Positions 52,311-57,614 of a stretch of DNA of 64,000 nucleotides are shown piece by piece. The DNA is from Paramacrobiotus metropolitanus. Taxonomy: Eukaryota > Tardigrada > Eutardigrada > Parachela > Macrobiotidae. The DNA is taken from NCBI RefSeq assembly GCF_019649055.1, contig NW_026570223.1, positions 2,914,001 to 2,978,000 of the forward strand, given 5' to 3'. How positions within the stretch are numbered: position 1 is the first letter of the stretch; every line of letters begins with the position of its first letter. The position numbers were made by a program, and so were the translations under genes. The notes under the pieces were generated by a model, which saw nothing but the letters and a program-made list of their open reading frames with translations, was not told the origin of the DNA and searched no databases.

Positions 52311-55300
52311 ATGGCTGCGCCTTTAGTCCGTAATGGGCGCATCCTGGGCGCTGCATCCGATGTTGTTTCTCGCCTCTTGGGATCAGACCTGGGACAGACA
52401 ATAGAGGTACTATGTATTTCGTTGAGTTTTCGTTTGATGATAATAACTGTTGATTTCATTTCCGTCTTGATTTAACCTGTATCAGTACGTTGGCAATTTG
52501 TATCAAAACGTTTATGGGTGATAACTTTTACTGTGCATTGTGCAATAACGTTTGGGTGTCTGCTGTTCGTTAATTTGATTCTGTGAGTAACAAACGGTTT
52601 TGTGGACTGTGGTGCTTTAGGGCTGTAACACAAGGCGTTTCCGCAACTTTCCAGCCTCCGGAGGCTGGAAATAAAATCTTCCGTCAAAACGAAGAAGTTC
52701 CGCTAGTGAGTTACAAGAACATCGTTATGCACGGTTCGTTAGGGTCACACTAAGGGAATAATTCGTACAGCGCCTGCTCGTACAAGTTCGGGCCACTGCA
52801 CTCACTCGAACTAAGTGACGTGCAGCGCAGCGCTGAGCTCACACGGAGTAATGAGTATAACACGTAAAGGCACGTCGCAGTTCCAACGTCTGCACCAGTA
52901 CAGCTGATGTTCAGAGTAGGAGCGATAAAACTTACTCATCTCATGCAAACATTCCACAAGTGAAGAACCTTCGCCTGGAATTCAACGTAGGAGCTCCTTT
53001 TATTCATGATGATTTCCATTATTATGAAAGGTAGATTTCAAGCTTTACATAGTAAGAACTGTGCGATAGCGTCTTCTAAATGTCTGAATGGACAGATAAC
53101 TGGGACCACAACGACTCAACATACAGGAGCTCCTTGTTGCTGCCTTTCTTCAAACAGCGATTCACAAAGGTACGTTTACTGCGTTTATCGCTGCAATTTT
53201 GCATTTTTTCTTTTAGAGACAACCACAGTGTAGACTGTTTATGAGTCGATGCTGGTTTTAGGTGCTATTCCGTCAGCGGAGCTCCGCACTAACTTGTCCC
53301 ATCTGCACCGTATTCCTTTACGGATAAAAAAATGAAAAAAACAGTCTAAATAAACCACCAACACCAAATGGACAATTAAGTTATAAAAGAAAACTAGGTC
53401 GCAACAAAAACTCCAACAAATTTTAATTGTTTTTACTATTAAACAATTTTGCAAGAACTGTTTGGCATTTGCTGCTTTTAAAATGCTGTGCTGTTTGGCT
53501 ATTTATTTCCCAATTGGATAATATTGTGCCAGTTAGCGTTAGTGTTTAAATCCCGCCTAGTGGTTTTGCGCAAATACGGTTGGGTGAAACCTGGCCACTC
53601 ACAGAGCGGATAAATGCTCGACAGGCCAATGCGAGAGCGGACATACTAACGTGCTCCGTTGATATGTGGAGTCATATCAACGCAACACGCTACGATCTCA
53701 CTTTTTCCGGGAGGGTCCGACAATTGTTCGGCACAGAAATGTGAAAACTTGGCTAAAGAATTGGAGCGCGTGAAGAGCGAGTCGGAACTTGCCAAGGAAA
53801 GATTGAGTGCAGAGAGGCGCCATGCGGAATTCGTTGCATTGTCAGCAAACCAAAAATTAGGCTCCTTACGTCAGAATCATAAAGATGAACTGCGAGAAAA
53901 ACATTTTCAAATGCTCCAAATATCGTATGACGTACAGATACGTTCCTTGGTCGAGTCGGTTGAAATGGATTTCATTGGCATATATGAATATGAGGAACAA
54001 AAGAAAATACCAAAAGGTACGAGTATTTCAGCAACGCACATTTTATAGGCAGTCTTGTTCTAGAGAACAAAAGGTCTAGTGAGATGATTAAACTCAATCG
54101 ATATTGGATAGTGAATTCCAAAGATAAATTAAATGGGGTGGACAGTAAACCATAGTAATGTTTGTGTAGTAGTGGACAGTGGTAGTGTGTTAAATGTGTG
54201 TGCAAGGGTCAGCAACTGTCAGTAAGCGTGGCTTCTGTTGTAGTTTTTACTTTTTACCCTATTTCAGAACTTTATCCAACGGCATTGAGGATGCGGAACA
54301 AGAAACAAGAAGGCAGCTCAACGCCGTTAGGTAAATATTTTAATAAGCTAATGGTAAGCTGACGTGATCATGTCGAGTTAAAATGCAAATATAGATATAC
54401 GTACTGTACTTACGGCATAAAGACTGTTTTTGCTTAAAAAAATTTCTGAAACAAGTCTGTCACTAATCAAGGAAAAATTTTAGATCGGAGACGAAGAGTC
54501 TGCCTGTGGGAACTTCTGAAAAAGCAAGGGTCCTTGAAAAAAAGGCTTCTGCAAACCAAAAACGATAAAGGCGAAATACTAATTACGCCAGATGTTTACG
54601 AAGTAATGGAAAGTTTAATCTTCCACATTTATGACAGTACCAGCGGGAACATTCACAAATTCCAAGAAGTTGGAGATATCGTGTACGTGAATGCACGTCT
54701 ATTAAATCCGCAGCAATTGGCTGTTGTCGAGGCTTTCTGTCGTATCCGCGGCGTAAATTTTAACATCTACGATGGCCTGCATTTGTTACGTGACTCTGGT
54801 ATACCGGATCACTGGAGAGGTGAAGTGGAGAATTTTGAGTGTCTACAACCGTGCGTCGCTGATAATACGTTCAGGGGCAAAGCGGCAAAAAGTGCTGAAG
54901 ACCTTCCTCTTGAGATTCCCCGTTATTTTTCACCACCAGCGTTGTTGGCTGTTCCTCTCCGAGAGGGAAGCTCTGGTGAAGCCCAGTGTCAATACGATCT
55001 GGTTGTCGTGGGCAGCGGATCAGGTACTGTGACCATTCTCCTTGAATTGTTGATAAAAATCTAATTGACTTTCACTGTGGCCCTAATAGGTGGTATTGCT
55101 GCTGCCCGAAAAGCAGCTAGCTTGGGAGCTAAAGTCGCCCTCGTTGAGTCGAAGGAAGGACGCCTAGGAGGAACTTGTGTAAGACATAAAAATATTCCGT
55201 ATTAAATATTTTATTCAGAGCGTGTATTCAAATGGTTTGACGCATCTGCTGGTTGTTGGAGGGAAAATGTTAAAGTACATATTTGTTAGAAATTATTCTG

Positions 55301-57614
55301 GTTTAAGTTTTGCGAAAAATGGTTGATACTTAACAGGCGCTAATACGAACAAACCGCAGCGTCATGTTGTAGCATATTTTTATAATGTTGCGAATTGCAG
55401 GTGAATGTGGGATGTGTACCGAAGAAAATCACGTGGAACGCTTCTAGTTTGGCAGCCAATATTGAGCATGATTTGAAGGATTATGGTTTTGACATTGAGT
55501 ACAAGGGTTTTGACTGGAAGAAATTTAAATCCAAACGGGACGCTTACGTGAAACGACTGAACGGGATATACGAAGCAAATCTGAAAAAGGTTAAAATGCG
55601 GGCACTCCGTGCTGTTTCCGGTCGGTGCTGCAATGAGCGTTTTTCAGGATGGAATTGAACTAGTGAACGGAGTGGGGCGATTCGATGATAACGGTGTCTT
55701 ACAAGTTGCTGAGCGGAAATTGTTGGCCAAACACTATCTGATTGCTGCCGGTGGGCGCCCAAAATGGCCTGAAATTCCAGGTGGGAATTTTTTGTTTAAT
55801 AATTTGCAGTTAGTCTAGTCGGGTATTAAAAATAGGCTAAGAATTTGAAATGTTCGTTATTGATTCGTTATTGAAATTATTATTCGTTATTGAAATATTA
55901 TTCGTTATTGAAAAATTTGAAATGTTCGTTATTGATTCCGATAACGTTAAGTTTTGGTAGTTGCTTCAGTTAAAGATATGTAGTTGTAAACAAAGACAAG
56001 GAAATATGCTAAGGACATTGAAATTTCCGTGTTAATGAATTTTGTTTACACAGGAGCGGAACTTGGGATTGACAGTGATGGATTCTTCGAGCTGGAAGCA
56101 TTGCCAAAAAAAGTCGCCGTTGTTGGAGGAGGATATATTGGTAGGTGTTGGTAGGTGTAGTTGGAATTTTTTATCTGGTCCGAATTTTTTTTCGCTTCAA
56201 TCTGCAAGTGCTTGGATTTAGGGGTGGAAATTTGCGGCATGTTTCGGTCTTTTGGATGTCAGGCTCAGATGTTCATCAAAGAAGAACGACTGCTATATCA
56301 TTTTGAAAAGATGATTGGCAGTGCTATTGAAGAAGAATTCAGCCACCAGGGAATCAAGATTCATAAAAAGTTTCAGGCTGGCGCTCTGAAGCGCGAATCC
56401 GACGGAAGTTTGACACTGATATCGGGTGAACACTATTATAAAGGCTTTGATTGTGTATTATGGGCAATCGGGCGGACTGCCAACAGCGATACTATCGGAC
56501 TGGAAAAACTGGTAGGAACGTCTTAGCATTTTGTATGAATTTTTCTCTTTAATTTGTTTTCTGGCGGTAGTTGCTTTTTGGAGTACTTCATCCAGTGCTT
56601 GCGTTTAATATTTTATCGAATCAGTTATTTGATAGTTGATAAGCAAATTATTTTTTTGGTTACCACATTTTGATTACGATTAGCGAAGTGCTGAATGGTT
56701 TCAGGGTATAAAGATGAATGAACGTGGCCGTATTCAAGTGGATAAATATCAGAAGACGACTGTGGACAATGTTTACGCTATTGGCGGTGCGTCTTGAAAA
56801 ACAGTTTGTATTCATGCAAACAGACACCTGTATTATTTGAATTTACTTATGCAGATATTACCGGACAGAAAGAATTAACGCCGGTAGCTATCGCAGCTGG
56901 GCGTCGTTTGGCGGAAAAGCTATTTGGAAAGGACACTTCGGCACATTTATCATGCGAAAACATTCCAAGTGTGGTATTCTCCCATCCTCCATGTGGATCG
57001 GTGGGATTGTCAGAAGGTTTCTGTCTGTATGCACATTTGCCGAAGCAGACGTATTGTTTGATTGTAGAATTTGCTGGCGTATCGCTTTCCAGCGTTAAGA
57101 TAATAAAACTGGTTCAAACGATGACGACAACGCACTTTGCGTAATATAGAATTTTGAAGATTGATTGATTGTACGTTTTGTTGTGTGTTCTTACAGAGGA
57201 GGCTCAGAAGAAATACGGAAACGATCATATCAAAATCTATGAGACATCATATACGCCCATGTATCACGCATTAACGGAATGTAAAACTAAATGTATCGTC
57301 AAAATGATTTGTACCGGTGCAGATGAGAAGGTAAGAACCGGAACCAGCAACTGTAATAATTAACTATCACTAACTGGCTTCCTTGTACCTGCTAAGATGG
57401 TGCCGCTTTACTTCCATGGTATTTGTCCATTTTATTGCTTTTGAAATAATCTAGGCGAAAAAACCTGGGTTAATTTGTGATGAGTTTGTTTTTATAGATT
57501 GTTGGGCTTCACCTCGTGGGAATTGGTAGCGATGAAACGATGCAGGGTTTCGCTGTGGCAATCAGTATGGGCGCTACTAAGAAGCAGTTCGATCTGGGAG
57601 TTATTGTTTACTAA
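52311..57614 (+). CDS. Chimera: unrecognised coiled-coil module fused to C-terminally truncated glutathione reductase
   Basis: Thirteen exons join without a stop: 52311-52406, 53737-54016, 54268-54330, 54484-55023, 55090-55178, 55401-55589, 55648-55780, 56054-56140, 56222-56511, 56705-56786, 56855-57016, 57197-57330 and 57498-57614; 753 residues. Exons 1-4 encode a short LGAASDVV segment, a coiled coil ([20 protein letters not shown]), a linker, and an unrecognised globular part ([37 protein letters not shown]). Inside exon 4 the frame runs into the reductase FAD strand ([13 protein letters not shown]). [16 protein letters not shown] and the NADPH motif are kept, but the end reads [11 protein letters not shown] and stops, so HPTSSEE is missing. 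Reductase activity is therefore doubtful; FAD and NADPH binding may persist. Exons 1-4 have a stand-alone paralogue at 60229-61693. Exon 1 is supported by a matching exon in that paralogue. Confidence 0.8.
52648..52671. repeat. Perfect 24-bp palindrome
   Basis: TTTCCAGCCTCC followed directly by its exact reverse complement, in the first intron of the chimeric gene. Could be a dimer-binding site; no function can be read. Confidence 0.7.
55845..55945. repeat. TTCGTTATTGA repeat in the chimeric gene's reductase intron
   Basis: About five copies of TTATTCGTTATTGAAA-like units. The homologous intron of the intact reductase (26068-26329) carries only a single-copy version, so this is a post-duplication expansion. 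Confidence 0.75.

Follow-up and report, generated by a model that had tools for sequence, protein, structure and literature searches.

In glutathione reductase (GR) the C-terminal catalytic histidine of one subunit serves the active site of its partner, and in thioredoxin glutathione reductase (TGR, the TXNRD3 type) a reductase of the same superfamily carries a fused N-terminal domain. A gene of the tardigrade Paramacrobiotus metropolitanus can be set beside both. It lies in a stretch of 64,000 nucleotides of contig NW_026570223.1 (C3:2914001-2978000, hereafter the window; coordinates without a prefix count from its first base) and is, as its alignments indicate, a duplicated GR gene joined in frame, within one exon, to an orphan module of one species. 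We consider it about an even bet that this chimera is a maintained, lineage-specific fusion whose product is a GR-like pseudoenzyme that perhaps pairs with the intact GR.

Like members of the GR family (TIGR01421, gluta_reduc_1), the chimera has the flavin adenine dinucleotide (FAD) motif, the redox motif CVNVGC, the pyridine nucleotide fold and most of the dimerisation domain; it differs in having approximately 300 extra N-terminal residues, in lacking the C-terminal His and Glu-Glu, and in having lost the old start codon. It shares with TGR the fusion of an N-terminal domain to a reductase, but no glutaredoxin family is among the eight Pfam families matched by the 753-residue protein (E<=0.001), its TIGR01438 score of 332 bits lies below the cut-off of 475.85, and there is no C-terminal redox extension; by these measures the chimera is not a TGR. 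A third comparison, with the Schistosoma japonicum signal-sequence family, concerns the N-terminal part. In the excerpted text of PMC3434034, that family is described from one species only, with a common 5' targeting sequence, and repeats are discussed as spreading agents. The module family described below is likewise confined to a single species so far and has a common 5' sequence, but its 5' exons resemble those of ATP synthase alpha, and two of its members run in frame into pieces of enzymes.

The original prediction held that no family is known in which GR has such an N-terminus, and this stands: none of the 120 listed relatives (of 7999 hits, with candidates restricted to 257-817 residues) is long enough, and the GRs of Hypsibius (506 residues) and Ramazzottius (474 residues) are unfused. 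Note that no P. metropolitanus GR is among these 120, although two other proteins of the species are in the database; a longer clustered representative, beyond the length limits, could explain this. Nor did the listed titles and beginnings of abstracts on tardigrade GR, GR fusions, P. metropolitanus gene duplication, tardigrade chimeric genes, or tardigrade mitochondrial ATP synthase and coiled coils contain a report of the chimera.

At the DNA level the fusion is real. The spliced frame (52311-57614, forward strand) comprises 13 exons and 2262 nt, that is 753 codons plus a stop, all 12 introns are GT-AG, and splice phases are consistent throughout, as had been predicted. The passage from the unknown part into the FAD strand had also been correctly placed within exon 4 (54484-55023). 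Downstream of the join, residues 303-753 align without a gap to the intact GR (27187-24279, reverse strand), with 425 of 451 residues identical, and the eight complete exons common to the two genes are of equal length. These are the only close GR copies found in the genome (169.8 Mb in 533 contigs, one assembly); the remaining matches of the GR search are a more distant reductase on contig C156 and one weak match on C45. Among database proteins, the best relatives are again from tardigrades (Hypsibius exemplaris, 67%; Ramazzottius varieornatus, 68%).

Upstream of the FAD strand the GR-like sequence goes on without a gap: at 54915-54962, 25 of 48 bases match, the best of 3000 registers (the next gives 22), and GR-derived sequence probably begins near 54915. 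Local alignment of the stretch upstream of the old GR start is not significant (0.15-0.28 of shuffles), and the position of the break can be given only to within some tens of bases. The old GR ATG (27187) lies opposite TTG at 54942 in the chimera, and no Met is encoded between join and FAD strand. That the frame of the first reductase exons has been kept therefore makes sense only if it is read through from upstream, and translation that begins at a normal start can yield a complete reductase half only within the fusion.

Overall identity of the two GR copies is 91-93%, and it is distributed as a mosaic. Over 54964-57614, 194 of 2634 aligned positions are mismatched, and the variance per 100 columns is 5.7 times the mean. 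In 100-column windows, identity reaches 97-100% in two tracts (approximately 55388-55788 and 55933-56333), introns included, drops to 62-87% in the intron between them, where there is also an indel, is 80-99% over most of the rest and falls to 60-81% at both ends. The longest identical run, 300 bp (55392-55691), exceeds the maximum of 178 obtained in 2000 permutations. Constraint alone is unlikely to be the cause of this identity, because the identical tracts contain introns; the best reading of the mosaic is an older duplication followed by gene conversion between the inverted copies. With the GR start codon facing TTG and the overall identity itself a mosaic read as conversion, the join is, on the evidence of these alignments, not fresh. 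The high identity is no sign of a recent join, being explained by conversion while both ends are strongly diverged, and a recent-duplication reading of the pair was abandoned because of the mosaic.

How much of an enzyme is left in the reductase half? The FAD-binding GxGxxG is kept as GSGSGG at the start of the fold, with Ser at a variable x position that is nevertheless Gly (116) or Ala (4) in the 120 listed relatives; CVNVGC is identical, both cysteines being present in all 120 listed relatives; and the dimerisation domain PF02852 is matched over positions 1-96 of 110 (95.8 bits), its end truncated. Against TIGR01421 the intact GR scores 611.2 bits and the chimera 575.8, which passes the cut-off of 556.15. 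What the chimera fails is the C-terminal catalytic His-Glu (HPTxxEE), and because it passes the family score yet fails this defining feature we term it GR-derived rather than a GR. The tail was once present and has since decayed, because DNA beyond the stop still aligns to the GR tail (z=5.46; 0 of 1000 shuffles as good). Judged by its residues, the reductase half is not an intact enzyme; should the chimera be produced at all, its role is probably different from that of the original enzyme. A fluke TGR offers a comparison: in the excerpted text of PMC10535113, changing His571 to Ala made thiolate-flavin charge-transfer formation approximately 17-20 fold slower, and by our own reading His571 would be the equivalent of GR His454.

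A separate observation concerns the coenzyme site of tardigrade GR, which looks changed (24279-27187, reverse strand; 56054-56511, forward strand). Lys occupies position 213 in all three tardigrades, where each of the 118 other listed relatives has Arg; at position 219 the tardigrades have Tyr, Ile and Ile, and the 118 others chiefly Arg (71), Thr (26) or Lys (13); and at position 194 Gly is shared by both window copies and the Hypsibius and Ramazzottius sequences, Ala being found in 113 of the 120 listed relatives. The excerpted text of PMC5817062, citing Scrutton 1990, gives the changes of E. coli GR towards reduced nicotinamide adenine dinucleotide (NADH) as A179G, A183G, V197E, R198M, K199F, H200D and R204P. 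By our reading of the E. coli alignment, the tardigrade changes and their neighbours would fall on the sites of this redesign, and NADH use by tardigrade GRs is possible. Approximately 3 kb from the intact GR, an open frame (29833-30246) looks by eye like the glutamate-cysteine ligase regulatory subunit, possibly placing two glutathione genes side by side.

The N-terminal module belongs to a family of six loci: the chimera, a paralogue in the window (LOC129593530), C3:2987902-2989722, C3:3027-3028 kb (LOC129598633), C3:3144-3145 kb and C2:462-464 kb. Genome searches with the module part of chimera exon 4 and with the window paralogue each recover the same six; the helical part of the chimera finds five, missing C3:3144 kb, as does the most distant member, missing C3:2988 kb. 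Set aside from these searches were the first exon of the intact GR and a match on C333 with two stops (E=1.99). In the protein database, residues 1-314 of the chimera have no match at E<=10 among proteins of approximately 173-549 residues, and a six-member profile finds two proteins, both from P. metropolitanus, namely the window paralogue and the C3:3027 kb member, the latter equal to our gene model. Note that the profile found two family proteins missed by the single chimera query, so that absence elsewhere is only as strong as word-based searches. The family has so far been found only in P. metropolitanus.

Aligned, the six members share 11 invariant columns and consist of a charged helical segment followed by a domain with the consensus LWKxLK, IDSRLL and EAxCR, to which the chimera conforms. 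In a tree of the six rows, in which two long branches were flagged, the chimera and the C3:2987902 member are sisters (support 100/99); on this tree, the sister of the chimera's module lies outside the window, at C3:2987902-2989722. The window paralogue at 60-62 kb is 32% identical to the chimera's module over 250 codons. Both parental parts had been predicted to survive nearby, which is right for GR but not for the module, whose relative at 60-62 kb is a distant paralogue rather than the donor.

The N-terminus had further been taken for a coiled coil, a reading we rejected: a crude heptad test was unsupportive in all six members, the score being equalled in 0.11-0.90 of 2000 shuffles. A long helix in the module is likely, in keeping with a low-confidence model of the paralogue that forms one long helix. 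Mean predicted local distance difference test (pLDDT) values were 42.3 for a single-sequence model of part of chimera exon 4 and 47.2 for a four-row model of the paralogue, too poor for fold comparison. Searches for known domains gave only weak, scattered matches in Pfam (single proteins and six members), NCBIfam (six members) and PDB sequences (one protein and the alignment). A PDB match to the Glr2806 protein (E=7.3e-08) covers only residues 39-108, the charged helix, was not repeated by the family profile and is probably compositional. In one member an EF-hand-like loop, DDDGNKFISEQTF, can be seen by eye; an EF-hand family matched one of the six members, at E=0.16.

Judged by matches to the intact ATP5A gene (C3:3087369-3090192), at least three other module members begin with ATP synthase alpha exons. 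The 5' DNA of ATP5A matches three module loci (the window paralogue, C3:3028 kb and C3:3145 kb). The 3' end of ATP5A is matched by DNA downstream of two members (the window paralogue and C3:3027 kb) and by the end of the C3:2989 kb member. In the database version of the window paralogue, MALLSARVTEVIVRQLSNNPSS is followed by stretches resembling ATP5A exons 2 and 3, and these by the module. Exon 1 of the chimera aligns to the exon-3-type exon of the paralogue (z=11.4; score 55 against a maximum of 32 in 200 shuffles) and, with an exact match of 18 nt, to ATP5A exon 3 itself (z=4.2; score 37 against a maximum of 35); on these alignments it is a relic of an ATP synthase alpha exon-3-type exon. 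No match to ATP5A exon 1 or 2 was found in 50900-52420 (z 0.3 and -0.1), and the chimera is without the presequence type seen in several, not all, members. The sister member at C3:2987902 is, by its domain matches, a second in-frame chimera: its module continues in frame into exons for the ATP5A beta-barrel and C-terminal domain (PF02874, PF00306), the catalytic middle missing, in a model that has no start exon. Behind the C3:3144 kb member lies DNA that looks, by eye, like a degraded fragment of the gene immediately upstream, which we take to be DNAJC2-like.

Some further features of these loci may be recorded here. The first exon of the C2 member is, by eye, like ATP5A exon 2, and in the C3:3144320-3145387 member the modelled second exon is intronless and a 51-column match to ATP5A exon 8 precedes the module. 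Just upstream of the second chimera lies a repeat open reading frame (C3:2986618-2987607; no Pfam match) with at least 121 genome matches listed, of 3328 candidates; the DNA surrounding the C2 member contains a relative, and upstream of ATP5A there is a copy of its 3' tail. A role for this retroelement-like repeat was dropped: a protein-level search of the window with it gave no match at E<=1e-3, leaving nothing to tie it to the chimera.

How might such a gene have arisen, and what might it do? The sequence itself shows a GR gene duplicate joined, inside one exon and in frame, to a member of the six-locus family, and the loss of the old GR start codon, which leaves the reductase half to be read only as a fusion; the identity pattern fits gene conversion with the intact inverted copy approximately 28 kb away at a later time. 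We propose that the fusion is expressed and kept by selection. Less certainly, its product would retain FAD motif, redox cysteines and the greater part of the dimer domain yet be unable to give the C-terminal His-Glu pair to a partner's active site. Such a GR-like pseudoenzyme would most simply be a half-active heterodimer partner or scaffold of the intact GR, and its location or associates would be set by the orphan module. One can imagine a more specific version, a selected regulatory pseudoenzyme forming GR heterodimers with one live and one dead site, in which the module would recruit GR to a mitochondrial site during drying and rehydration and, since a sister gene has ATP synthase alpha domains, would be an adaptor on more than one mitochondrial enzyme; we think this elaboration unlikely. 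If expressed, the chimera would provide an example of a GR relative lacking its catalytic base, and this in animals noted for their survival of desiccation. In the excerpted text of PMC8816950, RNA interference for GR in the congener P. spatialis left animals immobile just after rehydration, after which they recovered. More generally, the locus would represent a gene birth with most of its pieces on one contig (donor enzyme, module relatives, second chimera, conversion track), and it makes testable how a new domain, so far in one species, attaches to core metabolism.

The main rival to a maintained fusion is a chimeric pseudogene in decay. In this scenario, the join is real but unselected, and the reductase half looks healthy because the intact copy has overwritten it; we hold this to be a genuine if on balance doubtful possibility. 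It is not what the numbers of non-synonymous (dN) and synonymous (dS) changes suggest. The comparison of reductase part and intact copy, proposed along with the original prediction, gives pairwise ratios (omega) of 0.19-0.23 (dS 0.13, dN 0.029, ratio 0.225; 0.188 without the last nine codons), and GR exon 1, which is little converted, gives 0.174 (dS 0.957, dN 0.167, Fisher p=0.0012). Among 3000 neutral simulations with 17 synonymous changes on the chimera branch, 1.9% end with no more than 23 nonsynonymous changes. The module frame is open over 273 tested codons, no near-identical copy was found that could refresh it, and its neutral survival (819 nt, substitutions only) would be 0.0235 at 0.1 and 0.001 at 0.2 changes per site. 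All 12 introns, moreover, are intact. The 26 residue differences, placed with seven outgroup proteins, divide into 12 derived in the chimera, 6 in GR and 8 undecided, with no significant rate difference between 12 and 6 (p=0.24).

A number of points weigh against maintenance. Pairwise omega mixes the chimera and intact GR lineages, and conversion, of which the signal is strong, can make a dead copy look constrained. With only 10 synonymous changes on the branch, neutrality is not rejected (P=0.36); stop-free neutral survival of the GR part is not unusual (0.08 at 17 synonymous changes), and that of the module frame becomes 0.13 at 0.05 and 0.41 at 0.02 changes per site if the branch is short. 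Chimera-derived changes hit invariant or near-invariant sites: His454, present in 120 of 120 listed relatives, is Tyr followed by a stop, Glu459 and Glu460 (each 120 of 120) are absent, Tyr351 (120 of 120) is Cys, and Gly25 (Gly in 116, Ala in 4) is Ser. Together with an omega of 0.722 in the last exon, these catalytic-site losses and invariant-site changes fit decay; the GR tail has decayed, and so, by eye, has the piece of another gene that follows the related C3:3144 kb member. Furthermore, expression of the fusion is presumed from its sequence, and the heterodimer idea draws on general knowledge of GR biochemistry. Overall, constraint on the chimera is likely rather than proven, and conversion could mimic it.

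A maintained fusion might instead encode a working flavoprotein with changed chemistry, in which Tyr replaces His and another acceptor, or oxygen, is reduced with NAD(P)H in or near mitochondria. GxGxxG and CVNVGC are present, the TIGR01421 cut-off is still passed and the first exon has its relatives among the exons of a gene for a mitochondrial precursor, but as a targeting signal the chimera's N-terminus is weak (4 basic and 4 acidic among 35 residues) and we know of no enzyme of the GR family that works without the His; we regard this reading as improbable. That two separate genes, or an assembly error, have been misread as one is very improbable indeed: expression of the fusion is only presumed and the locus comes from a single assembly, but the junction sequence has itself diverged from the intact GR 5' end and hence is no fresh misjoin, the GR part lacks a start codon where the old one stood, and frame and phases are continuous through exon 4. 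Misassembly is also made less plausible by the excerpted text of PMC8277472, where the Paramacrobiotus sp. TYO assembly, which we infer to be from the same animal, is described as built from long and short reads (45x and 62x).

Table 1. Features of the chimeric gene and its surroundings, in window coordinates.
Feature	Position	Strand	Evidence
Exon 1, start ATG; relic of ATP synthase alpha exon-3-type exon	52311..52406	+	local alignments to paralogue exon and ATP5A exon 3
Exon 2, charged helical segment of orphan module	53737..54016	+	family alignment, splice sites
Exon 3, orphan module	54268..54330	+	splice model, family alignment
Exon 4: C-terminal part of orphan module, join, GR FAD strand	54484..55023	+	splice model
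Join zone around old GR start; gapless GR-like sequence	54915..54962	+	25/48 identical
Exon 5, GR part	55090..55178	+	splice model
Exon 6, GR part, redox cysteines CVNVGC	55401..55589	+	splice model, residue comparison
Exon 7, GR part	55648..55780	+	splice model
Exon 8, GR part	56054..56140	+	splice model
Exon 9, GR part	56222..56511	+	splice model
Exon 10, GR part	56705..56786	+	splice model
Exon 11, GR part	56855..57016	+	splice model
Exon 12, GR part	57197..57330	+	splice model
Exon 13, GR part; end DLGVIVY-stop; Tyr for catalytic His, His-Glu tail gone	57498..57614	+	splice model, residue comparison
Decayed, untranslated rest of GR 3' end	57615..57700	+	alignment z=5.46, 0/1000 shuffles as good
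Tract read as gene conversion: 300-bp identity to intact GR (exon 6, 58-bp intron, part of exon 7)	55392..55691	+	permutation test
Intact GR gene, 10 exons, 467 aa	24279..27187	-	splice model, GR comparison
Paralogue of N-terminal module (LOC129593530); first exons like ATP synthase alpha exons 1-3	60229..62053	-	DNA and protein matches
Remnant of ATP synthase alpha 3' end, downstream of window paralogue	59763..60080	-	69.6% identity, 336 columns
Foldback repeat element, ~240-bp inverted arms, 3' of chimera	58005..58777	.	self-comparison, genome matches

The foldback element (58005-58777) has at least 41 matching places in the genome, the window's two included. Elsewhere in the window, self-comparison reveals a tandem array with a unit near 73 bp (13941-19355) and an inverted partial copy of it approximately 3-4 kb away, and a very long open frame (37201-41427) is repetitive and rich in Pro, Gln, Thr and Gly.

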